Source: Romanomermis culicivorax
Lineage: Eukaryota > Nematoda > Enoplea > Mermithida > Mermithidae
Reading direction: 5' to 3'
Length of the DNA: 64,000 bases
Assembly: GCA_963922205.1 (NCBI GenBank)
Contig: CAWUHX010000006.1
Location: 1,595,139 to 1,659,138, forward strand
The stretch's first letter is position 1. Each line of letters opens with the position of its first letter. The translations under genes and the position numbers were made by a program. Under the pieces are notes generated by a model that was given only the letters and a program-made list of their open reading frames with translations, was not told the DNA's origin and did no database searches. Below are positions 1,951 to 61,496 of this stretch, piece after piece.

Positions 1951-2849
1951 TGTAACGTAACTGCTAAAGCAGTACTGTAAATATGTAGCATACTGTATGT
2001 AATAGACATTTATTAAATATGATTAATTTTCACATTTTATCGTCTCAAGGGTGTCTGGGATTCACACCCAAACATTCCTACAAAATTACGTGAAGTACTT
2101 TATTTTGATCCGTTCACACCCCGGTAGCCCAATTAAGACGCCCTAATTAATTTGCACAAACGGCAGCTGTTCCCCTAGAACCCACACTAAACTACACATT
2201 CCACAGCTACCGTAATCCCCAGTAAAAATCGTAAACAACACCTGCACACAGTAAAATGCGTAGAAGCCCCGCCGTACAGTAGTCTCAAGTGTAACGGTAG
2301 CGGCGGCCCCACAAAACATGTGTATACAGAGAAACCGATACAGGAAGCATGCACAGAAGCACAAAGGTGTGGCCAAGCCCACTGTAGAAAGCAAGCGAAG
2401 CACAGAAAGCATACAGTACCAGAAAAGCATTAGAGAGGCGTAATTAAGAAAGCATAAAAAGCGTAGCAGGAAACGACGATTGGCGGAAGAAGATGGACAG
2501 AAGCTCGACCTCCCGCGACGCCCAGGGAGTGGCCAAAATCGCCGTATAAAAGAAGAAGCAAAGCGTGATTTGATCATTCTTATTCTTGTGGTTTTTCCGT
2601 TTTGACTTCCGCGCTCACCCCGTCTTTTTATGCATTTGCAAGCGGCCGCCTATTCGAAAGCAACTTAAACCGAGGCCCCCCGTTCGTATTATAAATCAAA
2701 ACACGTTTTTATTTGTCGACGTTCAAGCGACCGTCGATCACCCGTTGTTTTATTGTAACCGTTCGCCCGCGCCCCCGTCCCGTTATTCGCCCCGCCGTAT
2801 CGACCGATTGGTTAGAAGTAAAGTACCTCATACAAATCTGGTTGTTACA
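1951..2849 (+). repeat. 5' LTR of the gag-env-pro-pol retroelement
   Basis: 899 bp, from TGTAACGTA to GTTACA, with a 6-bp perfect terminal inverted repeat (TGTAAC/GTTACA). It matches 10355-11253 over the same length with about 13 substitutions by eye (about 1.4%) and no indels. A TATAAAAG box lies at 2545-2552, so U3 is about 620 bp and R/U5 about 275 bp. The low divergence marks a recent insertion. Confidence 0.95.
2545..2552 (+). promoter_or_regulatory. LTR TATA box
   Basis: TATAAAAG lies about 300 bp before the LTR end. Transcription would be expected to start about 25-30 bp downstream, near 2575-2582. The same box is at 10949-10956 in the 3' LTR and, in reverse, at 12660-12667 in the related solo LTR, so it is conserved between the two families. 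Confidence 0.7.
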
Positions 2850-2854
2850 TATTT

Positions 2855-2872
2855 TGGTTACCGTACCATTAC
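2855..2872 (+). other. Candidate primer binding site
   Basis: TGGTTACCGTACCATTAC starts 5 nt after the 5' LTR. TGG at the 5' side fits complementarity to the CCA end of a tRNA. I could not assign the tRNA. Confidence 0.45.
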
Positions 2873-3092
2873 GTTAACCACTGGAACTCCCTGCCCCCAA
2901 TTAGGTGTACTCTTATCCGGGCATTTAGAAGCATTAGATAATACAGTAGTAATCATTTCCTACAGTAAGACAGTATTCGTAGAAAGCAAACTGGAAATCC
3001 CCTCCAACGAGACATTAAGCGATACATTTAAACGAATACAGCGTGAAGCAAAAATTGAAGCATTTAAGCAGAAATCCCATCGTAAACCAAGA

Positions 3093-4682
3093 ATGACCCA
3101 CCAAACGCAAGATCATTTACGAGAAATCGTTAGAGAACAGATAAACAATTTGTTTTCAGAACATTTTCGTACCCTACGCACACAATTGAATCAGAATACA
3201 GTAAACCCTACCCTAATAGATGATCTAAGAACAGCAAACATTCGTAATAACATGGCAAACAATTTCTACGCGAAACCTACAGTATTCACGGGCGGCGTGA
3301 CCCAACATTTTGGTGAATGGAACAAAAGATTAGAACAATTCATGGCACTCCAAGGCATGAAAGATACAGACGTACAGTTAAAGTTGGCATGTTTAGAGAT
3401 TCATTTAGGAGGAGCCGCGTTAGCAAAATTCAAAAGCTTAGCCAATTCCGAAAACCCTCCCCACACATACGAGCAGTATAAAGTCGCATTACAGGCATTT
3501 TTCCCAAACAATAGAGATAATGAGCTACATCAACAATTCTTACGCGAAAGAAAACAAAAGCGATCAGAAACAGTAACGGAATTCTTATTTGATCTAGAAC
3601 ATCTCGCAACCCTCGCCTACCCTAACTTTAACACAGATGCACGAGAAATGATCATAAAACCCCTCTTTGTAGAAGGCATGCAAAACGAAATCAGGGAAGC
3701 AATTAAGTATAGAAGGTTCGCAACTTTAAAAGAAATGTCAGACGAAGCAGCTTACATTGAACAGCAAATCCTTAGAAACGAGTTAAAATCTAATGTCCTT
3801 CCCTTCATACCCCCAAAACCCGAACCTATCTTTTCCCTAACCAAAAATACAGACCAACAGGATCTTTTGCATCAGTTAGAACAACAAGTAAAAGATTTAC
3901 AGTTGCAGATCAAACAAAAACCCCAACCCCCACAACAAAGTAGCTACAACAATTTCGGTAACAACACTTACAGTAGGAATAATGCTTACAGGAACAATAC
4001 CACCCCTAGGCAACCCACATGCTTCCAGTGTGGACAAATCAGACACGTAGCTCGTAATTGTAAATCAGTAGGTACCCGAAAACCATGTGAAATCAGTTTC
4101 CGTAATAATCACAGTACACGTGATTGTAAAAGCCGATGCATCCACTGCTCCCAAACAGGACATAGATCAGATAACTGCCTTTCGAAACCCTACTCAAATT
4201 TTCAATGTTTTATATGCAAGCAGAGAGGTCATACAAGCAGGTATTGCCCAAATCAGCAGAGTCGTAATATTCAAAATTGCATTGAGTACAGGCAACCCCA
4301 ACCCCTCATGGACATTGATGACCCCGCATTTTACTCAAAATTACCCGCCATAACTAACGGCCCTCAGACTACTTTAGGAACTATCATGCCCAACACCCAC
4401 CGCCGTAGTGACGAATACGTCCTTGATCTGGACGTACCCGATTGGTGCGCCATGTCACCACCCCCCACGCCTGAAGCCGCAAAAATCGAAAAATCGCCGC
4501 CCACCATCCCCGTAGGCTACAAGATCCCCCGAAAGCAAGACACAACGCCGCCCACCACTCCCGAAACCCGGTCGAAAACAGGCCGCAACTTGTTATCCCT
4601 TCTCCATGGCCTGACCCCCGAACCCTACCAATTCCGCCCCCGCCAAACACTTCTACCGACCCCCATAAGTAAGCAAGTCTAA
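3093..4682 (+). CDS. gag: Gag polyprotein of the LTR retroelement
   Basis: Structural capsid/nucleocapsid protein that would pack the element RNA. From the first in-frame ATG at 3093 it is 529 aa, but the frame is open without a stop from about 2586, inside the LTR and across the PBS, so a longer non-AUG or spliced N-terminus is possible. A retrotrans_gag-like helical capsid region is at about 3240-3790 (EWNKRLEQF, TVTEFLFDLEHL). A coiled, Gln-rich stretch follows, then four zinc knuckles: CCHC at 4020-4061, a degenerate one at 4086-4127 whose second Cys is Ser, CCHC at 4137-4178 and CCHC at 4206-4247. The C-terminus is Pro/Thr-rich. It ends in a single UAA at 4680-4682 after which the same frame stays open into the envelope ORF. 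Confidence 0.93.
   Translation: MTHQTQDHLREIVREQINNLFSEHFRTLRTQLNQNTVNPTLIDDLRTANIRNNMANNFYAKPTVFTGGVTQHFGEWNKRLEQFMALQGMKDTDVQLKLACLEIHLGGAALAKFKSLANSENPPHTYEQYKVALQAFFPNNRDNELHQQFLRERKQKRSETVTEFLFDLEHLATLAYPNFNTDAREMIIKPLFVEGMQNEIREAIKYRRFATLKEMSDEAAYIEQQILRNELKSNVLPFIPPKPEPIFSLTKNTDQQDLLHQLEQQVKDLQLQIKQKPQPPQQSSYNNFGNNTYSRNNAYRNNTTPRQPTCFQCGQIRHVARNCKSVGTRKPCEISFRNNHSTRDCKSRCIHCSQTGHRSDNCLSKPYSNFQCFICKQRGHTSRYCPNQQSRNIQNCIEYRQPQPLMDIDDPAFYSKLPAITNGPQTTLGTIMPNTHRRSDEYVLDLDVPDWCAMSPPPTPEAAKIEKSPPTIPVGYKIPRKQDTTPPTTPETRSKTGRNLLSLLHGLTPEPYQFRPRQTLLPTPISKQV
4680..4682 (+). other. Sole in-frame stop between gag and env-pro
   Basis: UAA at 4680-4682 is the only stop in this frame between 2586 and 7628. 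The 171 nt from 4683 to the Env ATG at 4854 read open in the gag frame and encode a basic, Pro/Gln-rich linker. This allows stop-codon readthrough to Gag-Env-Pro, or simply reflects an env start within a once-continuous frame. Which one is used cannot be told from sequence. Confidence 0.75.
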
Positions 4683-4853
4683 ACCCCATCCCATAACTCA
4701 ACTTCTAAAGTTTTACAGAACGTTCAGATTGCAAACCGGCCACCCCCCCAGCGCAAAACCGCAAAACGACAACACCAAAAGCCCCAACACCAAACCGGCC
4801 ACAACGAAAACATACAGTGCCCCGCCGCCTCCACTAAAACATTCTATTGGCCG

Positions 4854-7628
4854 ATGTTTTGTATTTTTCTTTGTATAATAATCCCCACATCGTGTAGTGC
4901 CCAATTTCAGATGTGTGGAACTTCATTGAGCAGTCACTCAGTCAGCATACCAAAACTTGTATCATGCATGCCCCCTTCCACAGTAGACAAACCCGTACAA
5001 ACATTCGGAAAAATCTATATCCCCTCCACTAAGCCCCACATTACAGACGCATACAAATGCAGTGTTCGCAAACGCAAAATTTGTACTAATACAGGATTTT
5101 TTGGATCAAAAGGTATTGTCTTCGACCAAACCGAAATGCAAAATCTAACCCCACATGTTTGTAAGGCAATCGTTATAGACAAAGAACACAACGGTCAAAA
5201 ATTATACGAAACCCAACCAGGATTTTGGTCAACAAATAACTCCCTAAGCGTAGAATACACATGGTGTTGTACAGACCATTGTACCTCGGTCACTAACGTC
5301 ATCATAGAAATAGGACAAATAGCATCTTGGAATGGAAAATCTATGACAGGTACATTAGGCGACCTAGGGTCATGCAAACCGACATCAGGTCATTGTGTCA
5401 CAGCCGACGGATCCATTATCTGGAACGAAACAGCATTTGAAAACTTATGCCCCTTTGAATACAAAAATACACATCCCATAAAACTCACGCCAACCCACAT
5501 GATAATAGAAGAGCTACAAGGTGCATTTTCGGTTAAAAACACACTCTTTTCAAACCCCAATTGCCCAGAAATCCAAGACAGCATTCTAACCGAACAAGGC
5601 ATTATTGTACAATTAGACAAAAGCACACCACATCCTAACGCATTTTTAAACCCAAAAACCAACGAAACTCATACTACACTATACGATTTTGATGATTTTG
5701 AACCCATCAATGCAAAACTAAACTATCTAGCAGACAAAATACAGGAATTCGAAATTCAAAATTTCAAAAATGTATGGAATGAATTATGCAGACAGGCACA
5801 GCATCACCTTGATCTCCTATGGCAAATTTTACGTCTTGATGCAACCCTTGGAGCGCGTGCATTCCTACAGCGAACGGACATCATAGCAGAATTCACAGGA
5901 GAAGCCCTCACAGTCTGGCCCTGCAAGCAGGTAAACGCATCCAAAGTCTTTTACAGCCATAAAATCAACCAAACATGCTACAAACTTTTGCCCATTCTCG
6001 TAGGAACTGAACTCATGTTTTCAAATCCAGGAGGCAACGATTTGACCCCTTTTTCACAAACCGTTGACTGCCATCATATGCATGTAGCCCTTTACAAACA
6101 GAATAATACATGGGTCAGTGAAACAGGATCCCCGCATGTCACAAATTTACCTTTAGAAATCGTCTGGAACCAAAATTTCTCCCTTTTCCATTTTAATACA
6201 CCCGCCATTTTTCATGATCAACTTGCAACTATTTCAACCAACTTACTCTTTTTGAAACAATACATTTACAAAACTCACACACTCGAAAACATTGTCAAAA
6301 AACTCGTCAATTACACCGCCCAAATGTCTCCCAATTCCGATACAGTTTACAACATGATCTCAGGCACTGGCCAAGCACTCGGAAATACACTCTCTGGCGC
6401 CGGTCAAGGCATAGAACATGTAATTACCGGTACCACCCAAAGTCTCACAGACGGATTAAACAATTTACTCAAAGGACCCCTGCAAATCATTATAAATCTA
6501 GCCGTTATTACTGTAGTTATTGCAGGCGTCGTTTATTCATTTCTCGTTCTTCGAAAATATTTCCCCTCTCCAAAGCATCATGCCACAAACGAACATGCAT
6601 ACGAAATACCATCAAACAACAGACATTTACATGAGACCATTCCCCCATCATTCGGCCATGCTCTCTTAGAATTAGCTAATCGTCGTGGGGCACAAACACA
6701 GCAGAAATACGTCCTTGTCGATATTGATACCCCCCGAACTCCTGCAATCGAACTCATTAATCAAATTCACCAATCTGCATCAAATAAGCCACCCCAAAAT
6801 GTACCTGAGAAACATACCCCTCATATTCCAATCACACTTAACGGCAAATTAATGACAAAAGGCATGATTGACACTGGTGCAGTTTACTCACTCATTGATT
6901 CCAGAATCGCTCAACTTTTACAGTTAGACATGAAACCCCAGCTAGTCCAAGCAAAAGCAGCAAATAATCTTCCGATTCACTTTGTAGGGACCACTTTTGT
7001 CACAGTGACAGCCCAAACAATCCAGGAAACAATCATGGTCCATGTCCAAAAAGATTGCACAGCAGACATCCTTCTAGGCAAAAACTTTCTCAGTCGATTT
7101 TCGGAATACACTATCAACAATCAAAAATCACAGGTCAAATTTGGCAATGTTATACTACCCTGTGATGGCCTAGAATATAGCCCTCTTTCAACTCGTGGTG
7201 GAACTTATTTGGACGAGAAATTAGAATTACCACCCCGTACAGTAACCGAATTTACTGTCCCCTTGCCCAAGTCGTACTTACAGGTCAAACAGCTTGAATT
7301 CACCCTGAAACCCAAACAGAACTCTAAAGTCCATTTCGCAGCTTGTATATCTGAGAATCAAAACAATCGCATACGCATATCGGTCCTAAACACACAAGAA
7401 ACAGCTCAAATTCTTTACCCTGGAACATGCATTGGTACAGTCTCCTGTTACATCCTGAAACAAAATACTCCCGCTAACGTAACCCCTTCCACGCAAAACC
7501 AGCCCAACCCTTTTGATACATTCACATGGTTAAAAGAAAATGTTAATTTAACCTCCAGTGACCTCACAGAAGCAGAAAAAAACGCAACTCCTACGGGCCC
7601 TATCGAAGTACCCTACATTATATGCTAA
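4854..7628 (+). CDS. Envelope-like glycoprotein fused to retroviral aspartic protease
   Basis: A 924-aa ORF with two parts. Residues 1 to about 540 look like a viral surface glycoprotein: a hydrophobic signal peptide with a likely cleavage after Ala16, many cysteines, and at least eight N-glycosylation sequons (NNS, NET twice, NAS, NQT, NNT, NFS, NYT). A Gly-rich amphipathic segment (GTGQALGNTLSGAGQG) precedes a membrane span at about 543-567 and a basic stop-transfer. Residues about 650-770 are a retropepsin-like protease with DTGA (Asp673) and DILLG (738-742). In known retroviruses and errantiviruses env lies 3' of pol; here it lies between gag and pro and shares a chain with the protease. 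The block LGARAFLQR suggests kinship to mononegavirus/chuvirus-type glycoproteins, at low confidence. It ends in a 77-nt overlap with pol. Confidence 0.85.
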   Translation: MFCIFLCIIIPTSCSAQFQMCGTSLSSHSVSIPKLVSCMPPSTVDKPVQTFGKIYIPSTKPHITDAYKCSVRKRKICTNTGFFGSKGIVFDQTEMQNLTPHVCKAIVIDKEHNGQKLYETQPGFWSTNNSLSVEYTWCCTDHCTSVTNVIIEIGQIASWNGKSMTGTLGDLGSCKPTSGHCVTADGSIIWNETAFENLCPFEYKNTHPIKLTPTHMIIEELQGAFSVKNTLFSNPNCPEIQDSILTEQGIIVQLDKSTPHPNAFLNPKTNETHTTLYDFDDFEPINAKLNYLADKIQEFEIQNFKNVWNELCRQAQHHLDLLWQILRLDATLGARAFLQRTDIIAEFTGEALTVWPCKQVNASKVFYSHKINQTCYKLLPILVGTELMFSNPGGNDLTPFSQTVDCHHMHVALYKQNNTWVSETGSPHVTNLPLEIVWNQNFSLFHFNTPAIFHDQLATISTNLLFLKQYIYKTHTLENIVKKLVNYTAQMSPNSDTVYNMISGTGQALGNTLSGAGQGIEHVITGTTQSLTDGLNNLLKGPLQIIINLAVITVVIAGVVYSFLVLRKYFPSPKHHATNEHAYEIPSNNRHLHETIPPSFGHALLELANRRGAQTQQKYVLVDIDTPRTPAIELINQIHQSASNKPPQNVPEKHTPHIPITLNGKLMTKGMIDTGAVYSLIDSRIAQLLQLDMKPQLVQAKAANNLPIHFVGTTFVTVTAQTIQETIMVHVQKDCTADILLGKNFLSRFSEYTINNQKSQVKFGNVILPCDGLEYSPLSTRGGTYLDEKLELPPRTVTEFTVPLPKSYLQVKQLEFTLKPKQNSKVHFAACISENQNNRIRISVLNTQETAQILYPGTCIGTVSCYILKQNTPANVTPSTQNQPNPFDTFTWLKENVNLTSSDLTEAEKNATPTGPIEVPYIIC

Positions 7629-10323
7629 ATCCAAAATGGACGTAGGCAGAACCACCCTCGTTTCACATACAATTGACACCAATGGCTATCAACCCATACG
7701 TAGACAACTTTATCGGACTTCCCCAAAAGAAAAACAAATCATACAAGCAGAAGTTGAGCAACTCGCAGCAGCAGGTGTCATAAGCCAAAGCAATTCCCCA
7801 TGGTGTACCAACACAGTTTTAGTTCCCAAAAAAGATGGAGGCCATCATTTATGCATTGATTTTCGAGGCCTCAACAAAGTCACAAAAAAAGATACCTACC
7901 CCTTGCCCCGGATAGACGAAATTCTAAACACCCTCCGTGGAATGAAATATTTTACGTCCCTTGACCAATCCAATGCATACTATTCCATTCCCATAGCACA
8001 AGCAGACAGAGAAAAAACGGCCTTTAATTGCTCAGCTGGCCAGTATCAATTCAATTACCTCCCCTTTGGACTCACCAATGCCCCAGCCACATTCCAAAGG
8101 TTAATGGATGTTATTCTTTCGGGTCTGCAATGGAACACATGCCTTGTATATCTCGACGATGTTTTGGTATTCGCAGACTCCCATGCCCAAATGCTGGAAC
8201 ATTTAGACACTATTCTTGCCCGATTCTCACAAGCAGGCCTTAAGCTAAACATACAAAAATGCAAATTCTGCCAGCCCCAAGTCCAATACTTAGGCCACGT
8301 CATTTCTCAGCAAGGCATTTCACCAGATCCCCATAAGGTACAGGCCATCTATGACATACCCACACCCAAAAGCTCAAAAGAAGTTAAGTCATTCCTTGGC
8401 CTACCCTCATATTATCGCAGATTCATCCCAAATTGCTCTCAAGTTTCTAGCCCACTCACATCGCTACTCAAAAAGAACTCAGAATTTTCCTGGGGCCCTG
8501 AACAGCAAAATGCATTCACTAAGCTAAAAGAATTACTCATTCATGCCCCAATACTGCAGCATCCCGATTTCACAAAACCATTTATCCTGCAAACTGACGC
8601 CTCAAAACTCGGAATTGGCGCCATTCTCAGTCAACTCGATAGTAAAGGTCAGGATCGCCCCATTGCTTTTGGGAGCCGCACACTAAAACCTGCAGAACGC
8701 AACTACCCGATAACTGAGTTGGAAACCCTTGCAGTAGTTGAGTTTGTCAAGTATTTCCGCCCCTACCTTTTCCAGCAACATGTTATTGTACACACTGACC
8801 ACACAGCAGTTCAGGCAGTCTTACAAAAGGAAAACCCGTCCCCTCGCATTGCCCGTTGGGGATTAGCTCTCTCCGGTATTCAGCTAGACATTCGACCCAA
8901 GAAAGGCACTGCTAACCGCAATGCAGATGCAGTTTCTCGATTCCCCTCACAGACAGCAAAGCAATCCTTTGATATTGAGCAATTACAAACCCGCCCCGAA
9001 ATATCAACTATCACTTCAGTTTTGGAAGCTGAAGCAACTGAACAAGAAGAGCAACAGAAAAACTTCGCCGAACTCCAACGCACTGACCCAACTGTCAAGA
9101 GTATTTTAGCAAAAATCGCCCAAAAACACCCCCTTACCCTTATCAAATTCGCAGTGCATCAAAACATTTTCTTCCGTATAGTCGACAAACAGGCAAAACT
9201 ATACATTCCCAAGTCGCAAGTCCAGCATCTCATGGCCTCTCATCATGACAGCAAATTCACAGGTCATTTTGCAGCCCGAAAAACTTTACACTTGCTCCGA
9301 AAAAAATATTTTTGGCCCCAAATGAGCCGTGATATCAAACATTACTGCAAAACTTGCCACCCATGCCAGACACAGAAAGCCCTCAGGCACAAAGTACATG
9401 CAAATTTGGTACCAATTCAGCCGACTGGCCCATTTGATAGAGTCGGTGTTGATTGCATGGGACCGTTACCCCTCACTGAAGACGGCAACCGATTCATTGT
9501 CGTTTTCATCGATTATTTCACAAAGTATGTAGAGGCATTCCCGACCCCTGACATCACGGCAGCCACTATTGCCAAGCTATTCGTAACCAAAATTGTTTGC
9601 TGTCATGGGTCCCCAAAAATCATCCATTGTGATCGTGGCACCGATTTCGTATCCGATCTTTTCTCACGGATCACCAGTTTATGCAATACTCAGAAAATTC
9701 ACACTACCCCATATCATCCCATTGCCAATGGGGAAGTTGAGCGTTGCAACCAAACCCTAGCCACCCGTATCCGCATGTACATCAATTCAAATCACACTGA
9801 TTGGGATACTTATCTGCCCTATGCCGTTTTTTCGATCAACATCCATAAAAATGATAGCACATCATATCCCCCATTTGAATTACTCCACGGTAGACAAGCT
9901 AATCTGCCATCAGACGCAGCCTTAAACTTTTTCCCCACGTCCTACATGGTTGATTTAGACGATTACGCCCTTCGTGTAAAATCGCATTTCACAGAAGCAC
10001 TCTCAACCGTGCAGAAAAGTTTGCAAAAAGCCCAAGCCCACTATACCCGTCAGTATAACAAGCATGCTCAGAACATACATTACAAGGCAGGTGATCTTAT
10101 TCTCTACAAAAATCACTCGTGTAAACAAGGGCTGACTCCCAAATTCCTCCCTCGCCAAAACGGACCCTATACAGTTACGAACTTCATGTACCCCAACGTT
10201 ACACTCAAACATCCCCGTAAGAATATTACATTTACGGTGCATGTAAATGAGACAACCCCTTTCTACCCTCGGAAAGCAACTATCGAATCTACCCCCACCC
10301 TTCCTCAACCTCGAAAGCCTTGA
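7552..10323 (+). CDS. pol: Pol: reverse transcriptase, RNase H, integrase
   Basis: The frame opens at 7552 after a stop at 7549-7551, overlaps Env-Pro by 77 nt in the +1 frame, and its first ATG is at 7636. RT: YLDD catalytic box at 8149-8160, with the upstream LPFGL and LCIDFRGLNK motifs. RNase H: QTDASKLGIG (Asp codon 8596) and TELETLAVV. Integrase: HHCC zinc finger at about 9238-9365, then D codon 9451, D codon 9631 and E codon 9739 (D-x35-E spacing). A GPY/F module follows near 10162; there is no chromodomain. It belongs to Ty3/gypsy (Metaviridae) by order and motifs. No internal stops, so it is potentially functional. The protease is absent from this ORF because it lies in Env-Pro. Confidence 0.95.
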   Translation, partial: PPVTSQKQKKTQLLRALSKYPTLYAKSKMDVGRTTLVSHTIDTNGYQPIRRQLYRTSPKEKQIIQAEVEQLAAAGVISQSNSPWCTNTVLVPKKDGGHHLCIDFRGLNKVTKKDTYPLPRIDEILNTLRGMKYFTSLDQSNAYYSIPIAQADREKTAFNCSAGQYQFNYLPFGLTNAPATFQRLMDVILSGLQWNTCLVYLDDVLVFADSHAQMLEHLDTILARFSQAGLKLNIQKCKFCQPQVQYLGHVISQQGISPDPHKVQAIYDIPTPKSSKEVKSFLGLPSYYRRFIPNCSQVSSPLTSLLKKNSEFSWGPEQQNAFTKLKELLIHAPILQHPDFTKPFILQTDASKLGIGAILSQLDSKGQDRPIAFGSRTLKPAERNYPITELETLAVVEFVKYFRPYLFQQHVIVHTDHTAVQAVLQKENPSPRIARWGLALSGIQLDIRPKKGTANRNADAVSRFPSQTAKQSFDIEQLQTRPEISTITSVLEAEATEQEEQQKNFAELQRTDPTVKSILAKIAQKHPLTLIKFAVHQNIFFRIVDKQAKLYIPKSQVQHLMASHHDSKFTGHFAARKTLHLLRKKYFWPQMSRDIKHYCKTCHPCQTQKALRHKVHANLVPIQPTGPFDRVGVDCMGPLPLTEDGNRFIVVFIDYFTKYVEAFPTPDITAATIAKLFVTKIVCCHGSPKIIHCDRGTDFVSDLFSRITSLCNTQKIHTTPYHPIANGEVERCNQTLATRIRMYINSNHTDWDTYLPYAVFSINIHKNDSTSYPPFELLHGRQANLPSDAALNFFPTSYMVDLDDYALRVKSHFTEALSTVQKSLQKAQAHYTRQYNKHAQNIHYKAGDLILYKNHSCKQGLTPKFLPRQNGPYTVTNFMYPNVTLKHPRKNITFTVHVNETTPFYPRKATIESTPTLPQPRKP

Positions 10324-10341
10324 ATGAGGACGTTCAACTCC

Positions 10342-10354
10342 GGAAGGAGGGAAA
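10342..10354 (+). other. Polypurine tract
   Basis: GGAAGGAGGGAAA directly abuts the 3' LTR, as needed for plus-strand DNA priming. It starts 18 nt after the pol stop (10321-10323), so no gene fits between pol and the 3' LTR. This confirms that env is not in its usual place. Confidence 0.9.
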
Positions 10355-11253
10355 TGTAACGTACCTGCTAAAGCAGTACTGTAAATATGTAGCATACTGT
10401 ATGTAATAGACATTTATTAAATATTATTAATTTTCACATTTTATCGTCTCAAGGGTGTCTGGGATTCACACCCCAACATTCCTACAAAATTACGTGAAGT
10501 ACTTTATTTTGATCCGTTCACACCCCGGTAGCCAAATAAAGACGCCCTAATTAATTTGCACAAACGGCAGCTGTTCCCCTAGAACCCACACTAAACTACA
10601 CATTCCACAGCTACCGTAATCCCCAGTAAAAATCGTAAACAACACCTGCACACAGTAAAATGCGTAGAAGCCCCGCCGTACAGTAGTCTCAAGTGTAACG
10701 GTAGCGGCGGCCCCACAAAACATGTGTATACAGAGAAACCGATACAGGAAGCATGCACAGAAGCACAAAGGTGTGGCCAAGCCCACTGTAGAAAGCAAGC
10801 GAAGCACAGAAAGCATACAGTACCAGAAAAGCATTAGAGAGGCGTAATTAAGAAAGCATAAAAAGCGTAGCAGGAAACGACGATTGGCGGAAGAAGATGG
10901 ACAGAAGCTCGACCTCCCGCCACGCCCAGGGAGTGGCCAAAATCGCCGTATAAAAGAAGAAGCAAAGCGTGATTTGATCATTCTTATTCTTGTGGTTTTT
11001 CCGTTTTGACTTCCGCGCTCGCCCCGTCTTTTTATACATTTGCAAGCGGCCGCCTATTCGAAAGCAACTTAAACCGAGGCCCCCCGTTCGTATTATAAAT
11101 CAAAACGCGTTTTTATTTGTCGACGTTCAAGCGACCATCGATCACCCGTTGTTTTATTGTAACCGTTCGCCCGCGCCCCCGTCCCGTTATTCGCCCCGCC
11201 GTATCGACCAATTGGTTAGAAGTAAAGTACCTCACACAAATCTGGTCGTTACA
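10355..11253 (+). repeat. 3' LTR of the gag-env-pro-pol retroelement
   Basis: 899 bp, TGTAAC to GTTACA, collinear with the 5' LTR. It is followed at 11254-11257 by the GTAT target duplication. An AATAAA at 10533-10538 is present only in this copy, but it lies in U3, upstream of the TATA box at 10949. Confidence 0.95.
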
Positions 11254-11257
11254 GTAT

Positions 11258-11887: not shown

Positions 11888-12369
11888 AGTGTAGAGTGAC
11901 TATTTCCATTGAGTTCCCCATAATCAAGAACCCCTCAACCCAGAAACGCAGAAATATCTTTGTTTACACACAGAACAATTTTTTGTGTGAAGTGATTGTG
12001 TCCATTGGATTCCGTGTCGGAAACCTCTTTCCCCAAAAATCGCAGAAATACATTTGAAATGCACTCAATATTGTGTGTAAAGTGATCTCATTCATTAAAT
12101 TCCCCTGGAGTGGAAAACCCCTTCCACAAAAAATCACAAAAATACGCTTGTTTACACCGGGAATAATTTTTTGTATACAGTGATCGCATTCATCAAACTC
12201 CCCGTATTCGAAAACCCCTCCCCCCAGAAAATTACGAAAATACATTCGTTCACACCTGGCATAATTTTTAAGTAAAGTGATTGCATTCACCATATTCCGG
12301 ATGGTCGAAAACCCCTTCCACTGAAAAAATTACGGAAATACGCTTGTTTACACCCAGAATAATTTTTTT
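11888..12369 (+). repeat. Tandem array, about 90-98 bp period
   Basis: Diverged units start near 11888, 11984, 12074, 12172 and 12270. Each contains a phrase like AAAGTGATCGCATTCAT, then GAAAACCCCTTCC, then TTGTTTACACC. The array resumes at 13248 after the solo LTR insertion. Confidence 0.8.
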
Positions 12370-45720: not shown

Positions 45721-46248
45721 TGTCAGGGTTACTGTGGGTGCACATGTTCAACTTTCGGTGTTGGCAGGCAGGCGGTGGATGCCGGGAAAAGTGGCAAGAA
45801 AAAAAAGACAAATTAGCATAGATTTGTGATGCCACTGTTTCGCATGTTTTTGGTTATTTTTTATTATTGGTTTTTGGTTATGGTTGCGTCGTGGTCTATT
45901 GTCGGATTTTATATTTATTTTTATTGTATTATTTGATGACCTCCCCTTGTTTTCCCATTAAAAGTTGAGATGGTAATTTGCATTGCTTTGTGAGTGTAGT
46001 GGAAGGTATCTTTAAGGATACCTTCCACTAGGTAAGGTTTGGAGACTTGGGTAAGAGCTCCTGAGGTACGTGCCAAAGTGTTCTGCCTGAGGTTTGGTGA
46101 AGTACTGGTGAGAGTATCTGGTACTCCATCTGAGAGAGTTTTGGTGTGGTTGTGTTTTTGTTAGCCTGTGGTCAGAACTGTTGCAACTTCCTTCGTATAA
46201 ACTCAAAGGTCAGTTACATCATCATCTTGACCCCACAGCAGCCTAACA
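45721..46248 (+). repeat. 5' LTR of the decayed gypsy-like element
   Basis: 528 bp, TGTCAGGG to CCTAACA (imperfect terminal inverted repeat). It matches 54045-54446 with many substitutions and three segments absent from the 3' copy: about 45782-45845, 46020-46040 and about 46124-46165. A perfect 12-bp hairpin (GTGGAAGGTATC and its reverse, 45999-46028) lies across the second of these. The heavy divergence marks an old insertion. Confidence 0.9.
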
Positions 46249-46250
46249 AG

Positions 46251-46268
46251 TGGTAGACCCTTAACACC
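46251..46268 (+). other. Candidate primer binding site of the decayed element
   Basis: TGGTAGACCCTTAACACC begins 2 nt after the 5' LTR and has the expected TGG start. tRNA not assigned. Confidence 0.6.
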
Positions 46269-46272
46269 TCTC

Positions 46273-46646
46273 ATGACAAATAATCGGAAAACCACCAGGA
46301 AAATAACTAAACCACCAGGTTTTTATAAGCAATTGCATACAAGTAAGATAAGTAAAATGAGTGTTCCTTTAGGAAAAACTTTGAGAACACCTCCTAGGTC
46401 TCAAGAATCGAGTGTTTTGAATTTCAAGTCTGCTGAAGAACACACAGCTTTAGGACAAATTCAAGCACATGTGCCTGAGACAGAATTGAGGCAGGAAAGT
46501 AAGACTTCCGAAGTGTCAAAATTGCGAGAGGAGTTAGCGAGGATTAGCTTTGGGATGGCCAAGCAAGCCGAAATCGAAGCTACTGTTGGCAGAAATTTCA
46601 AAGGTCATGGAACCTTGGAAAGGCAAAGACTGGGGACACCACTGAG
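46273..46646 (+). pseudogene. Truncated gag remnant
   Basis: Begins MTNNRKTTRK just after the PBS. A charged, helical segment (SKLREELARISFGMAKQAE) follows, then the frame runs abruptly into RT C-terminal sequence in another frame. Most of gag, protease and the RT catalytic core are missing, apparently by one deletion near 46600-46645. Confidence 0.65.
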
Positions 46647-48960
46647 AATGGAATTTCTCTGGATCCTAAGAAGGTCAAGGCAATAACGGAATTTTCATTT
46701 ACTGATTCTGTTAAGAAAATGCAGAGATTCCTAGGTATGCTTCAATGGTGTAAAAAATTTATACCAGACCTAGCAGCACAAGCTGAACCTTTCTACAAAT
46801 TGACAGGAAAGAAGGGAACGTGGAATGTTACGGATCAGTATTACGAAACGTTTGAGAAACTCAAAGTAGCATTGACCTCAGTTTCTTTCTTACCACATCC
46901 AATTTTAGATGGATCTGCCTGATTCATTCTTCAAATAGATGCTAGTAGAATTGCACTGGGAGCAGTGTTTTGTCAAGAGAATGACTCAGAATGTTGTGTG
47001 ATAGCCTACAATAGTTGGATATTGTGGGCAGAGGAACAGAAATAGTGTGCCACTAAAAGGGAATGTTTAGCCATGGTTTACAGCCTCAAAATTTATAAAC
47101 ATTATCTTTTGGGTCAAAAGGTCACAATTCAAACTGACCAAAAACCACTATTATCAATGAGGGTCGATACACAGACTAATGACAAACTCAAGAGGTGGTA
47201 TGCATTCACTTGCCAGTTCAACCACAAATACGAGTATGTGCCTGGCAGGAAAAATGCCATGGCAGATTTTCTTTCAAGTAGAGAAGAGCTCGATGAGCAA
47301 AAGGAAAAGTTGCTGCCAAAATGGGAGCTTATATTTCAGAAAGAAGAATTGAAATCTCTAACTGAAGACGAAATTATTAACCAAAATCATAAAGTTTTGG
47401 TGAACCAACTTCAGAAACTCAGAAGAGATGAAGTGGATGGGGCTGTAAAAGTCTTCACTTTTGTAAAGATGGCCACAGGTACAGAAACTTCAATATATTG
47501 TTCAGATGATGAACCTCAACTTAATCTTTGTCTAGAATTTGATAATTATCAAATGCCTGAGAAATATGGAATTGAGGCAGTAGTCACTAGACAGATGGCA
47601 AAAGACTTGCAGTAGGAGGGAAATGAACTCCCTCCGGGACAAGGAAAGCCATCAGGAGAGGTGAAACAAATTTTTGAGATGAAGGAGAAAGATTTTGAGG
47701 AAGCCCCTTGAGTTAAGGATCAAAGACTGAAAGGGCTTGTCTCCCATGTCTTAATGGCTCAATTGCAAGCATAAGATCAAGATTTAAAAGCGATCTTCAA
47801 AAAACTAGGTGTCAACAGTAACACCAAGTCTCAAAGTAACTTTTATATCAAAGAAGGGGTACTATATAGAGAGACTTTTGGTGAGGTAGAGGATCAAGTT
47901 GTTGTGCCCTCTGTCCTAAAAAAAGTTGTCCTACATCAGTATCATGGTCTGGTGATGATGACCCACCAATGGTTCAAGAGAAGCCTGGCCATTATTAAAA
48001 AGTGGTTCTAGTGGCCGAACATAGAAAAAAATGTTCAGAGCTGGATCAGCTTTTGTCCAATATGCCAAATTGTGAGGAAGAGCCAGGATACCACTGTTAA
48101 ATCCTATTATTCCTAGAGGATCATTTGACATAGTCTCTGTTGATATCCTGGGAATCTCTCTCATGAGTGAGAAGAGACCATATGTGATGGTGTTCCAAGA
48201 TTATTTTACCAAATGGGTGGAAGCAGAGATGATACCAGATCAATCTGCATTAACTATTGTTGGTAGTTTTTTGCAGAATATTGTGTTTAGGCATGGAACC
48301 CCAGTTAAATTTTTGAGTGATAATGGTTCATGCTTTATGGCTGATTTGATGATGTCAGTCTGTAAATTGTTAGAATGCCAAAAAATTTTCACAACTGCCT
48401 ACCATCCACAAGGAAAGAGAATGATTGAAAGATTTAATCAAACCTTGATTAAGCAGTTGAGGAAAGTGGCTATTGAAGATTCTGATAAGTGGGACAGATA
48501 TCTACAATCTGTCATTTTTGCATATAATGCCACCCCTCACACCTCAACAAAGTGCTCACCATTTGCTTTGTTGAGAGGGCATAAGACTAATTTTGGCATA
48601 AGTATTGGTGTTGCAAGAAATATAGTTCTGCCCATGAACTATGAGGCTTATAAGCATGTACTAACCAAAAGCTTAGTACAAACTTGTGAGACTATTTCTG
48701 AAAACATCAAGAAGGCTGCGAAGACCAGTAAGAAGTTTTTTGACTATAAAGCAAAAGCCCATGATTATTCAGTCAATGATTGGGTTTTGCTGAAGGTTGC
48801 AGAAAAAACTGGGTCTTCCGTGGCAAGGACAGTATATAGTAACTGATAGTAGTAGATTATCAGATAACATGCTTACAATTGGGCACTGGAGAGAGCCGCT
48901 GAAAAAGTGGGTTGTGTCCATGAGCAGGTTAAAGCACTTTTGCTACGAGACCACCAGATG
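46647..48960 (+). pseudogene. pol: Decayed pol: RT end, RNase H, integrase
   Basis: The RT connection region starts near 46647 (MQRFLGMLQWCKKFIPDLA at 46719). RNase H follows with QIDASRIALGAVF, a TKRECLAM glutamate, QTDQKPL and GRKNAMADFLS. The integrase zinc finger is at about 47930-48075, and the catalytic core at 48163-48846 has DYFTKWVEAE, LSDNGSCF and MIERFNQ. No YxDD box is present. In-frame stops occur at 46919, 47043 and 48009, with frameshifts near 48110 and 48810. Ty3/gypsy type; non-functional. Confidence 0.92.
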
Positions 48961-50298: not shown

Positions 50299-51509
50299 AT
50301 GTTAAATGCATTATCAGAGTTGACAAGTTGGAAACATGGTTTGGAACGAATTTCAGATATTTCTGTAAGGATTAACATAGCCAAAAATGGTCAAAATTAG
50401 TAAGGTTGCTGAGATGATCGAAACGCTAAAGAATAGTTGGTTTCGGGGTCAGCCAATCATTGGTTTTGATACTGAAAAGATGAGGCAGAAATATGTATCC
50501 AAAGTTTTTGCAACTTTTGGGGTTGACAACCCATTAGAGAAGGAGTTTGCAAGAATCATTAGCTTCTCGACAGTAACTGGAGATACCTTTGTTGTAGATA
50601 CTACAATAGTCATGCCGAAGGAATGGATGCTCATTCATGAGCTCTTAGATTCGGACATGCTTATTGTTGGATACAACTTGGTTACAGTTCTGGTTGCTAT
50701 CTGGAACATTAATGGAGCTGGCAGGAAAAATCAAACTGTTGATTTAACCAAAGAAATTATGCATAGAGTAATGTCTTTGTATGGGCATTATTACGATGTT
50801 GCCAAGGTAGGAGACCAATTAAACGGAAGGTTTTTGGCCATGTCCAGGAAGTTGGGACTGTGCATGGAAATGTTTAAGCTGACAGGATTGTTCATGGAGT
50901 TATATTTGGTGGATGTTGGTTTTTATCAAATCGATTTTCATCAGAGAATGCAATGTGAACAATTCTGTAGGCAGAATCTAAGGTAGTTTGAAATTAGGTA
51001 TTCAGCTCTTGACGCCTACTACTCATAAAAATTTTTTTCATTACGAGTTAGTAATGGAAGTCGAGGTCCGATTCCAATACTTTCCACATGATTTGGTAAA
51101 AGCTGATCAAATTCAATTGATGGCTTTTAGAATGTATAGATTTTTTAGTATGATTCATAGCGAGAACTTCCCGCAAACCTTTTGTAGAAGCCCGGAAGTG
51201 GAAGAGCCACAGTCATCTTGTGTTTATCATGTGATGAGGCAGGAAATGTATGCTCGTATGGCTTCCCAGTTGGACACTTCATTTAAAGGCCATATGGAGT
51301 ACTGTTTCCCTCATTACGAGGCAAATCTTAGTAGAGGAAGAGACGTAAAGATCCCCAAAGGAATCCACCTTGATTATACAGTCAAGGAAAAAGGAAAGAA
51401 TGTTGATGGGTATGATAGGTTAAGTGAGGATGAAGAGTTTGAAGAAGCTTTGTCAGAAAAGCAGATTTGGGCTCGGATTACAAAAATGGTAGTGGACATG
51501 GTTAATTAA
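50299..51509 (+). pseudogene. Captured DEDDy-type 3'-5' exonuclease, degenerate
   Basis: Resembles RNase D/DnaQ-fold exonucleases, which remove nucleotides from nucleic-acid 3' ends. Exo I is IIGFDTE (about 50456). A strand pair ISFSTVTGDTFVVDTT follows, then Exo II-like LLDSDMLIVGYNLVTVL (about 50643), where the expected Asp after N-x3 is Val. A LNGRFLAMSRKLGL helix follows, and Exo III RYSALDAYYS at about 50996-51025 is reached only by a frameshift after a TAG at 50984. A preceding ATG at 50299 is one frame off. The following frame (50988-51509) continues with no recognised domain (FPHDLVKADQIQLMAFRMYRF). Loss of the Exo II Asp and the shifts make it inactive. It lies between integrase and the 3' LTR, so it was carried by the retroelement. 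Confidence 0.6.
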
Positions 51510-51559
51510 GGTAAAGGTTACAATAAACTTGACGAACCAGTGTCCATGGTCTTTATGAG

Positions 51560-52411
51560 AATTTTCTAAGGTATCGAAAGGAAACTCAACAGTTGCTGGA
51601 AATTACCTCATTAGAAGTTGATTACCATGAGTATGAACCAGTCAATATACCGAATGGTAAAGACACGTATGTTAGGGAACATTGGAGAATGGACAGAGCC
51701 CCTTATTCTGAAATATTTGTTGAACACAATTTTAAAAATTTGGAAGCAGAGTGTAATAGACTACCCTTAACTTTTCATTTATTTTGGCCACATAGTAGGG
51801 AAGAGTCAGAGGAGTACTTGACCACTCTCCTTGACGACAACTATCTAAAGTCTTTTAGCCCAGAAGGTAAGGAGTTACTTTTGAAACTGTTGTGGAGAGG
51901 AGAGCGATATGGTCAGTATTTAGCATTTAATAGTAGTCTGCCAGTGAGGGAAGTGCATATGCCAACCAAGGGCAATGCAATTACTTGCTAGGGTAATCAA
52001 TTCAGGTTTATACTGATTCGATTTTGGCCGAAAACCAAATCGTGGGAATCAGTGCCGACTGACAAGAGACATCACTTGGCCGAATGTTTGCAGTACAAGA
52101 CCAATTGGTACTGCTACCAAGGATTCTGTTTTTGCCAAATTGTGGTTAGACTACTGGGCCTACAATTTGCGATCCATTTAAGTGAAGATACGACCAAAGA
52201 GAACCAAAAAAAGCACGTAATGACGTATCAACCCAAATACACCCCAGGTTACGATCCGCCATTCTTGGAGAATATTTTACTGTCAGATCAGCCTGGAATC
52301 CAGATTATGCATTCAGGTGATAAAGTCATTATTATGCTGATAGGTAAGCAGCCAGTGGCACCAGTCAAAGGCGCCAAGGTAAGCACAACAGTGGATGACC
52401 AATCGAAGTAG
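51560..52411 (+). pseudogene. Unrecognised coding remnants downstream of the exonuclease
   Basis: Two consecutive frames, 51593-51991 and 52052-52411, look protein-like (acidic, Tyr/His-rich; FHLFWPHSREESEEYL, YQPKYTPGYDPPFLEN) and probably belong to one original long ORF continuing from the exonuclease. No domain recognised. They are broken by stops and frameshifts. Confidence 0.45.
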
Positions 52412-57484: not shown

Positions 57485-58132
57485 ATGATAAATAGTGATT
57501 TTTCGATCGCCAAAATTATTTTCAAAAAACGAACAACCATGTTATCATCTATAATCGTCATATTTGTCTTTTCTACTTTGTCTTTTGGCCAAGAGAGCTT
57601 CATCGACCCGCGGATCCAAAACGTGTTACCTTTAGACGCCTCGCACGAATACATTTGCCCGGGAGTGGCCGTCAGCCGCCAATGGCTCTACAGTACGCCC
57701 GACGCTTACCTTTCCTGCAAGCGCGATCCCAACATTTGCCCGCCGGACTATTTTTGTTGGCCCAACGGCCAACAAAACAATTATTGTTGCCCCATCCAAG
57801 GCAAAGGACCTATAAAAAAGGAGTCCGTGCCTACAAGGGCCTTTTTGTCGTCCAATGAAGCCAAAATCGGCAAAGCTGACGAAAAATTGCGTCGCCGCGA
57901 TTCGGCTCTTTTGGACAACCGGGACTCGGGTCAACAGGGTATCCCCGGCAAAGAGAAAGTGATGCGTCGTTCTTCAAAATTACATCCGAAACGTCGAAAT
58001 TTCGACGACCTTGATTTGGACGTCGCCCCGGTATTCAACCCGATCATACCGGTCACAATAGTCAAACAACCGACAGCTTTGAACGTGCAAAAATTTTTTC
58101 GCGATTCGGCGTCATCATCGGCAAAAAAATGA
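57485..58132 (+). CDS. Secreted protein with a Lustrin-type cysteine-rich domain
   Basis: Single-exon frame of 215 aa from 57485, or 197 aa from the ATG at 57539, which I prefer because it opens directly with a signal peptide (LSSIIVIFVFSTLSFG). Residues about 55-103 of the long form hold six cysteines in a C...C-x5-C-x5-C...CC pattern with CPPDYFC and YCCP, like the Lustrin_cystein domain common in nematode extracellular proteins. The C-terminal half is basic, with several RR/RRR sites that could be processed, and ends in SASSSAKK. Codons are richer in G and C than the flanks. Likely an extracellular matrix or secreted product; function unknown. Its 3' part is duplicated at about 59378. Confidence 0.75.
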   Translation: MINSDFSIAKIIFKKRTTMLSSIIVIFVFSTLSFGQESFIDPRIQNVLPLDASHEYICPGVAVSRQWLYSTPDAYLSCKRDPNICPPDYFCWPNGQQNNYCCPIQGKGPIKKESVPTRAFLSSNEAKIGKADEKLRRRDSALLDNRDSGQQGIPGKEKVMRRSSKLHPKRRNFDDLDLDVAPVFNPIIPVTIVKQPTALNVQKFFRDSASSSAKK

Positions 58133-59377: not shown

Positions 59378-59745
59378 GTCACCCCGGTATTCAACCACAT
59401 CATACCGCTCACAATAGTGAAACAACCAATGACTTTGAACGTGCAAAAGTTTTTCCGCGATTCGGCTTCACCATCGGTTAAAAAATGAAATATGACAAAG
59501 AAGAACTTTCCTTCGATAGTTTGATATAATTTCCATTCCATATCGTTCCTTAGTTTTTCATTGATCGATAAAAGATCTACAGTTAGTAGCTGATAATGAG
59601 TCAAATTTTACAACTAGCTCCGATAGTATAACCTGTCAGCTATATGTTCTTTTGTTTATGCTTCGAAAGTGAAATGGTAATTTTTCGCTAATACTTATAG
59701 AGCTGTGAATTTGCGAGCTATGTATAAGAGTCTGAACTTCTACCA
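59378..59745 (+). pseudogene. Duplicated 3' end of the Lustrin-type gene
   Basis: About 59378-59487 corresponds to 58026-58132 and keeps the reading frame to the stop (VKQPMTLNVQKFFRDSAS...VKK). The 3' flank to about 59745 also matches 58133-58395, including CATTGATCGATAAAAGATCT. The 5' part, the signal peptide and the Cys domain are missing, so it is a gene fragment. The (AAAAG)n tract starts where similarity ends. Confidence 0.85.
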
Positions 59746-60810
59746 AGAAAAGAAAAGAAAAGAAAAGAAAAGAAAAGAAAAGAAAAGAAAAGAAAAGAAA
59801 AGAAAAGAAAAGAAAAGAAAAGAAAAGAAAAGAAAAGAAAAGAAAAGAAAAGAAAAGAAAAGAAAAGAAAAGAAAAAGAAAAGAAAAGAAAAGAAAAGAA
59901 AAAGAAAAGAAAAGAAAAGAAAAGAAAAGAAAAGAAAAGAAAAGAAAAGAAAAGAAAAGAAAAGAAAAGAAAAGAAAAGAAAAGAAAAGAAAAGAAAAGA
60001 AAAGAAAAGAAAAGAAAAGAAAAGAAAAGAAAAGAAAAGAAAAGAAAAGAAAAGAAAAGAAAAGAAAAGAAAAGAAAAGAAAAGAAAAGAAAAGAAAAGA
60101 AAAGAAAAGAAAAGAAAAGAAAAGAAAAGAAAAGAAAAGAAAAGAAAAGAAAAGAAAAGAAAAGAAAAGAAAAGAAAAGAAAAGAAAAGAAAAGAAAAGA
60201 AAAGAAAAGAAAAGAAAAGAAAAGAAAAAGAAAAGAAAAGAAAAGAAAAGAAAAGAAAAGAAAAGAAAAGAAAAGAAAAGAAAAGAAAAGAAAAGAAAAG
60301 AAAAGAAAAGAAAAGAAAAGAAAAGAAAAGAAAAGAAAAGAAAAGAAAAGAAAAGAAAAGAAAAGAAAAGAAAAGAAAAGAAAAGAAAAGAAAAGAAAAG
60401 AAAAGAAAAGAAAAGAAAAGAAAAGAAAAGAAAAGAAAAGAAAAGAAAAGAAAAGAAAAGAAAAGAAAAGAAAAGAAAAGAAAAGAAAAGAAAAGAAAAG
60501 AAAAGAAAAGAAAAGAAAAGAAAAGAAAAGAAAAGAAAAGAAAAGAAAAGAAAAGAAAAGAAAAGAAAAGAAAAGAAAAGAAAAGAAAAGAAAAGAAAAA
60601 GCAAAGAAAAGAAAAGAAAAGAAAAGAAAAGAAAAGAAAAGAAAAGAAAAGAAAAGAAAAGAAAAGAAAAGAAAAGAAAAGAAAAGAAAAGAAAAGAAAA
60701 GAAAAGAAAAGAAAAGAAAAGAAAAGAAAAGAAAAGAAAAGAAAAGAAAAGAAAAGAAAAGAAAAGAAAAGAAAAGAAAAGAAAAGAAAAGAAAGGAAAA
60801 GAAAAGAAAA
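59745..60810 (+). repeat. (AAAAG)n microsatellite, about 1.07 kb
   Basis: About 210 units of AAAAG with rare variants (AAAAAG near 59871, 59898, 60226 and 60599, one GCAAAG near 60601, GGAAAAG near 60795). Long open frames on both strands, rich in Lys/Glu/Arg or Phe/Ser/Leu, are artefacts of the pentamer. Confidence 0.98.
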
Positions 60811-61496
60811 TGATAAAAAGAAAGGAAAAGTTACGAAATGTAACGACAAGTGAAGTAAAGGAAAGACGAGTGAAGAAAAGAACGGTAATATAAAGGAGAG
60901 AGTAAAACGAATACAAAGAAAATAGATGAAATGAAATGACACAAAAACAGTAAAGCATAGAAAAATAAGTAAAGAAATATGAAGGTAAAATTAATAATGA
61001 TGAAAAAACGAAAATAAACAAAATCAAACGAAAAAATTTTGGGTAAAAAAGAGAAAATATTTTTTGTTGTCTTTTTACTATTTGTTCTCACACAAGTTTT
61101 TAAATGATTGATATCACCATCGTCGTCAACAACCTGTCAAATCTTTCATATTCATATTTCCATAACAAAGGCACAGCGTTTTGATGAGTGGTATTTCTAA
61201 TGTATCCCGCCGAGATCTATAAACTGATTTTGACGAGTATTTGAAAAACCATCTGCTAAACTTTAAAAAAATGTGCGTGTATGGATAGAAGCTTTCTGGA
61301 CAAGTCAGAACTAGAATGCTTGTTATTATGCGCGCATTTTTTGTTTGGCAATTTTATCGTCTAACAGCAGGATCCCCTCATAGAAAGAGAAAGATCTTGA
61401 AGAATGTAGGTGATGCAAATAAACCAAAAAGTTTCACATCAGTAATTTTCATACTGAATATAATCTACATATTCATGATGGTACACTATTATCAAA
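60811..61496. other. Degenerating purine-rich tail and intergenic sequence
   Basis: 60811-60990 is a decayed extension of the pentamer tract. The rest has no gene except the start of the next one. Confidence 0.45.

Follow-up and report, generated by a model that had tools for sequence, protein, structure and literature searches.

A gag-env-pro-pol gene order shared by four families of LTR retroelements in the nematode Romanomermis culicivorax

To our knowledge, retroviruses and long terminal repeat (LTR) retroelements that bear an envelope (Env) gene have otherwise been described with env 3' of pol. A 64,000-nucleotide stretch of the Romanomermis culicivorax genome (assembly GCA_963922205.1, contig CAWUHX010000006.1, positions 1,595,139 to 1,659,138 of the forward strand; hereafter the window) raises the question of whether env can also sit between gag and the protease gene. 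An initial annotation, made from the letters alone, described such an element at window positions 1951–11253. We asked whether this order is real, how widely it is shared and how its proteins might be made. The gag-env-pro-pol order is certain, and it is a real, old arrangement found in several families of a Ty3/Gypsy-type lineage.

The element is a complete, young LTR element. The 5' LTR (1951–2849; + strand, as are all parts of the element) begins with TG, ends with CA and differs by 13 mismatches from the 3' LTR (10355–11253), each being 899 bp long. The same duplication, GTAT, flanks the element on both sides (1947–1950 and 11254–11257) and was read directly from the sequence, as was the polypurine tract (10342–10354). 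Between the LTRs gag comes first, followed by env, protease and pol. Gag (3093–4682, 529 residues from the first ATG) contains Retrotrans_gag and three CCHC knuckles by Pfam and motif scan (PF03732, E = 8.5e-6; PF00098, 1.3e-5). A stop-free spacer in the frame of both gag and env (4683–4853) leads to env (4854–6776), whose product comprises a signal-like sequence, an ectodomain of putative class III fusion glycoprotein type, a membrane span and a tail. The aspartic protease (6828–7097) follows in the env frame, with DTGA at residue 673 (Pfam PF13975, gag-asp_proteas, at residues 659–748, 1.1e-8). Pol (7552–10323) encodes reverse transcriptase (RT; YLDD at 8149), RNase H and integrase (H2C2 and D-D-E motifs, GPY motif at 10159), identified by Pfam and motifs. 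Only 31 nt, with the purine tract at their end, separate the pol stop from the 3' LTR, so that, as the initial annotation had stated, the element has no env in the usual 3' place.

That annotation had also credited the env product with a signal peptide, at least eight sequons and a membrane span, and these hold. The open reading frame (ORF) of 924 residues opens with a signal-like sequence, judged by eye, and has 12 sequons, nine of which precede the span (residues 97, 128, 191, 270, 361, 372, 417, 441 and 486). The span lies at about residues 541–567 (6474–6554), at a hydropathy peak, and falls within a helix of the structure model (residues 521–569). From stop to stop, the frames of the window copy are gag 2574–4682, env-pro 4683–7628 (ATG at 4854) and pol 7552–10323. 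Gag and env-pro thus share a frame, parted by a single stop, and the pol frame differs from that of env-pro.

Other copies in the genome carry the same order. Searched with the Env protein, the genome had at least 69 scored matches among 4262 candidates, each of full length and 97%–100% identical, and a search with the protease gave at least 150 at 96% identity or more (3530 candidates). Allowing at most two mismatches, a 34-base pattern from the gag end had 618 genomic matches and none when read backwards; we use the 618 as an estimate of copy number, which does not imply an env behind each. In all 30 fetched loci of family A, to which the window copy belongs and among which it is counted, the last part of gag is followed by env, then protease, then the beginning of pol. 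Across all four families described below, a protease match lies downstream of env in 60 of 60 fetched env loci, again including the window's own (the match is partial in L044 and L053), and none of the copies checked had env 3' of pol, the arrangement that the initial annotation had named as fatal to its claim. One protease copy has a frame of 1820 residues, about the length expected without env, but has the usual env sequence upstream all the same.

Comparison of the copies changes how the window's own ORFs are to be read. A single frame of at least 2450 residues, which has room for gag, env, protease and pol, covers 37 of 69 copies scored for env and 72 of 150 scored for protease, the others being interrupted somewhere. 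The gag-env spacer has a length divisible by three in 28 of the 30 family A loci, and among those 28 only the window copy has a stop in it. The stretch between protease and pol differs in length from the window copy in all 29 other loci. Among the loci compared, only the window copy thus has the stop after gag and this change of frame ahead of pol. The joint ORF of env and protease that had been described is correct for the window copy, but its separation from gag and pol does not extend to intact copies. Because 72 of the 150 scored protease copies sit in an unbroken frame of 2450 residues or more, we take the intact form to be one Gag-Env-Pro-Pol ORF, and this single-frame form is well supported. 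We dropped a programmed frameshift before pol, since the frame change is confined to the window copy among the 30 loci.

The arrangement is not limited to family A. A search of the genome with a Pfam model gave 68 scored matches (2320 candidates), and the 30 of these that were fetched, leaving 38, fell by identity into four families: A (13 loci), B (11), C (3) and D (3). The gag-env-pro-pol order is common to all four. Upstream of env, family B has a gag with 37% identity to that of the window (E = 1.7e-87), four CCHC knuckles and the env frame (one copy; the knuckles are also seen by Pfam, 8e-16), and family C has a short, partial gag match. In family D the upstream gag match is at 25% identity (4e-15) and in the env frame class (one copy), and this piece has no Pfam match. 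Coordinate arithmetic puts the RT pieces of all three of these families in the env frame. Long open frames occur in B (2514–2578 residues in six of 11 fetched loci) and C (2144–2178 residues in two of three). Identity to the window falls from 53% in B to 41% in C and 34% in D for Env (36% for D in a larger alignment), and from 73% to 61% and 51% for RT (one copy each). The RT comparison rests on identities among A–D; among eight further loci there were only short chance matches in five and no match in three. The parallel fall of Env and RT identities suggests that the two genes have traveled together since before the families split.

Profile and piece searches outside this genome found five related proteins, P0004–P0008, of which P0005 is itself recorded from R. 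culicivorax. P0008 (948 residues, JGI) has well over 150 residues upstream of Env, with a further hydrophobic stretch among them, judged by eye; Env follows in the same frame, as do a membrane span and a protease that matches Asp_protease_2 at 2.6e-4, below the curated cut-off. P0007 (1079 residues, ENA) opens with a methionine at the signal-like sequence, and Env, a membrane span, a protease-like DSGS motif and the beginning of an RT-like stretch come next, the last two judged by eye and with no Pfam match at E 0.1. Among IMG/VR sequences there were no pattern matches to close relatives, and none of 74 matched stretches was confirmed; likewise, none of 62 GTDB contigs was confirmed as a relative. 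P0006 is recorded as a protein of a Gammaproteobacteria metagenome-assembled genome, yet it is an Env of this lineage, and the record is probably a mis-binned eukaryotic contig.

The initial annotation had proposed that residues 1–570 of the env product would need to resemble some viral glycoprotein, and both profile and fold comparisons point to one. PF24664 (Monjiviricetes_fusion) matches residues 269–440 (5658–6173) at 6.9e-19 (in a second scan 7.6e-19, 67.6 bits against a cut-off of 27) and is matched in four of four families. The profile BDV_G is matched in two of four families (best 9.4e-6) and Glycoprotein_B in three of four (best 0.0031); P0008 reaches 1.3e-7 with Glycoprotein_B but is below its cut-off (31.8 of 43 bits). 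We take these three Pfam families to be class III. When the low-confidence model of Env was compared with the PDB, all 50 matches listed were herpesvirus glycoproteins (gB), and comparison with predicted viral structures (BFVD) gave rhabdo-, chu- and nyavirus-like glycoproteins. The same low-confidence model has a beta fusion domain, a long central helix, a further beta domain and a single membrane span, as in the class III fold. A profile search of the PDB with Env listed three chains (two named gB and one ORF8, best E 0.022). Single-sequence searches with Env gave no matches in the PDB and none confirmed among 4370 protein candidates. By profile and predicted fold, residues 1–570 are a class III-type fusion glycoprotein. 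The BFVD matches include A0A1L3KN41 and G0WXQ1, glycoproteins of Shayang ascaridia galli virus 2 and Socyvirus heteroderae; these viruses, named after nematode hosts, are possible kin of the donor.

Pol places the element close to Ty3. Against solved structures its best matches were Ty3-G Gag-Pol (7q5b, 1.9e-122) and 4ol8 (1.4e-90), followed by 8r0s, an "Enzymatic polyprotein" (5.1e-59), and 8wus, a "Gag-Pol polyprotein" (3.1e-37). By these matches Ty3 is the closest solved relative, in a library that possibly holds no BEL/Pao chain. Other features of Metaviridae (Ty3/Gypsy) are present: TG...CA LTRs with the short GTAT duplication on both sides, the order protease-RT-RNase H-integrase by Pfam across the env-pro and pol ORFs, and a C-terminal GPY/F motif in integrase (NGPY at 10159). 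An env 3' of pol, as in Errantivirus and in Retroviridae, is lacking, as the 31 nt between the pol stop and the 3' LTR show. We consider it probable, though well short of sure, that the element belongs to a Ty3/Gypsy-type (Metaviridae-like) lineage that captured a class III-type Env like those of negative-strand RNA viruses (Monjiviricetes), inserted in frame after the nucleocapsid end of gag and ahead of the protease, and expresses it in the manner set out next, the two propositions being taken jointly. Identity with Troyka was rejected, as Troyka has CG...CG termini and no envelope (PMC12440569).

How could an Env in the middle of Gag-Pol be made? The initial annotation offered two mechanisms, a protease made as the tail of a separately encoded Env and an Env embedded in a Gag-Env-Pro-Pol chain. 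We favor the second as the best mechanism and think it the likelier course of events, since intact copies of A, B and C are open throughout and copies of B and C have no start codon near the signal-like sequence: the nearest upstream methionine is 66 codons before the N-terminal cysteine motif of Env in B (nine of 11 loci) and 100 codons before it in C (three of three). The first mechanism loses ground in that an ORF of Env and protease alone is peculiar to the window copy, although initiation at the ATG at 4854 is possible there. Under the embedded arrangement, full-length RNA would be translated as a single chain. The env signal peptide, emerging behind Gag, would direct the ribosome to the endoplasmic reticulum, and signal peptidase would release Gag. 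The Env ectodomain would pass into the lumen until the membrane span stopped transfer, and protease, RT and integrase would be made as a cytosolic tail of Env. Because the chain would cross the membrane twice, Gag and Pol would lie on the same, cytosolic side. Cleavage of this tail by the protease would come next, and particles would receive Pol by way of Env instead of a Gag-Pol fusion.

Several observations weigh against this single chain. The structure model of Env is weak (mean predicted local distance difference test score, pLDDT, 50.9), and the protease of family B has DCGA rather than DTGA or DSGA (for example in L048). The gag piece of family D has two stops in the env frame (one copy), and none of the three fetched D loci has a frame of 2000 residues. 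Making Gag, Env and Pol at 1:1:1 would be unusual. The low pN/pS (nonsynonymous over synonymous differences) of Env speaks for the chain but carries a bias: in 30 family A loci the Env ectodomain had a value of 0.056 and RT one of 0.048, with 0.090 for span and tail and 0.074 for protease, but these loci were picked by Env similarity, which lowers the pN of Env. Env is under purifying selection near that of RT in loci so picked. Gag had a pN/pS of 0.173 in 27 of the 30 loci, three lying outside the fixed window used. Nine family B loci gave 0.154 for Env and 0.32 for the end of gag with the spacer. Their values for span and tail (3.07, from very few changes) and protease (0.47) are not relied on, because one of the nine (L041) has an apparent frame break near the protease, judged from coordinates. 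In the family A spacer, pN/pS was 0.76 in frame versus 1.50 and 0.67 in the shifted frames, so amino-acid constraint does not mark the frame. The case for translation through the spacer therefore rests on its open frame and its length, not on constraint. Lastly, a methionine stands at or near the signal-like sequence in some copies (ATG 4854 in the window, directly before it; 34 codons from the cysteine motif in three of three D copies; the first residue of P0007), and separate initiation of Env is possible there.

The best surviving alternative builds on these methionines. Here Env-Pro or Env-Pro-Pol would be translated from an mRNA of its own, made by cis- or trans-splicing, or after re-initiation, while Gag came from full-length RNA and Pol still reached particles via Env. 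An acceptor-like site with an exon start at 4719 would suit such an mRNA, as would the unmarked frame of the family A spacer. Against this, B and C lack a methionine within the 66 and 100 codons given above, and separate initiation leaves the open, in-frame spacer between gag and env unexplained. We regard it as unlikely overall, roughly a one-in-five prospect.

A second alternative, which we find more doubtful still, treats Env as an in-frame intron. A donor at 4669 and an acceptor ending at 6669 would remove 2001 nt (the end of gag, env and the span) to give Gag-Pro-Pol, and retention would give Env. The donor-like AGTAAGC is present in 30 of 30 family A loci and the acceptor AG in 29 of 30. 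The pair also preserves the frame, but this has a one-in-three probability by chance. Searched for as donor motifs, GT(A/G)AG and GTATG were absent from the 754–763 nt upstream of env in four of four B copies examined (11 fetched) and from the 1042–1045 nt upstream in two of two C copies examined (three fetched). The joined junction had no genomic matches versus 618 for the unjoined donor side, and sister elements without env were sought by this junction only. Splicing-out of Env is thus disfavored by the absence of these donor motifs from the examined B and C copies and of any genomic trace of the joined junction. The last alternative, that a local rearrangement or an assembly error shifted env upstream of pol, could draw on the absence of the order from the literature searched but is refuted by the other genomic copies, given env followed by protease in all 60 fetched loci and a long-read assembly (PMC10879605). 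Two proteins of other datasets also speak against it, since Env is continuous with a protease in P0008 and with a protease-like stretch in P0007, and we assign it a negligible chance.

We also compared the element with known systems. No element with env between gag and protease was found in the open-licence literature searched, which leaves out most subscription papers and so does not prove the order unreported. Env-bearing LTR elements are described with env 3' of pol (PMC7642597, PMC10309623, PMC9094657), and Roo, Tas and Cer-7 have it downstream of the polyprotein (PMC7642597). The nearest known system in that literature is Atlas virus, with the hookworm belpaoviruses: a nematode LTR retroelement with a single polyprotein of 2828 residues and an Env that is kin to that of a negative-strand RNA virus (PMC9094657). 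However, Atlas virus is a BEL/Pao element with a C-terminal Env (Gag-Pol-Env) of class II (phlebovirus Gn-Gc type; PMC9094657), whereas the R. culicivorax element combines a Ty3-like pol with a putative class III Env between Gag and Pro. Anakin is also an LTR retroelement with a glycoprotein from a negative-strand RNA virus, a chuvirus, but it is of BEL/Pao type and occurs in mosquitoes (PMC7642597). R. culicivorax is a mermithid nematode parasitic in the larvae of mosquitoes, which are also the hosts that the description of the Anakin capture concerns. The Cer elements of Caenorhabditis elegans are likewise nematode LTR elements, and Cer1 is Gypsy/Ty3-related (PMC3315495) with no stop between gag and pol, but a lack of resemblance to retroviral Env is reported (PMC10309623). 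A herpesvirus-derived Env is cited for a Cer element (PMC7642597), which makes it a possible gB-type precedent. Insect errantiviruses (gypsy) are Gypsy-group LTR elements with an acquired envelope gene, although theirs is likely of baculovirus origin (PMC12440569).

Two further comparisons bear on placement and layout. Errantiviruses belong to Metaviridae and carry the envelope gene 3'. The alphavirus structural polyprotein begins with a cytosolic capsid, followed in one chain by an internal signal and membrane glycoproteins. It is unrelated and lacks a tail of protease, RT and integrase, but it would work alike in layout.

If this reading is correct, a class III Env set in the middle turned Gag-Pol into a double-spanning membrane polyprotein, and it is Env, not Gag, that takes protease, RT and integrase into particles; the lineage may even be an infectious nematode virus, active now or recently. 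We see the chances of this fuller picture as evenly balanced. Retroviral polymerases would then have a third way into particles, beside the Gag-Pol fusion and a separate spliced Pol. An Env in mid-chain would also mean that a retroelement can tie the packaging of its polymerase to the expression of Env. Since Env has been kept between nucleocapsid and protease while RT fell to about 51% identity, env capture appears possible at a place other than the 3' end. The capture itself also adds to the record: no clear evidence of Monjiviricetes-type glycoproteins captured by Gypsy elements is reported in PMC10084718, and a glycoprotein of that type is now seen, by its profile match, in a Ty3/Gypsy-type element.

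Elsewhere in the window we noted several features. A remnant of another retroelement pol (46231–48846, + strand) retains pieces of RNase H and integrase whose frames are broken. Four consecutive ORFs follow (50381–52411, + strand); the three scanned had no Pfam match over the cut-off, and the first opens with a DEDD exonuclease-like motif, judged by eye. An ORF of secreted type, again by eye (57485–58132, + strand), has a weak match to the Lustrin cysteine-rich profile (E 0.01, below the cut-off). At 59745–60830, about 217 copies of the five-base unit AAGAA, with 98% matches, leave several frames open on both strands, and three 98-bp tandem units lie downstream of the element at 12076–12368.
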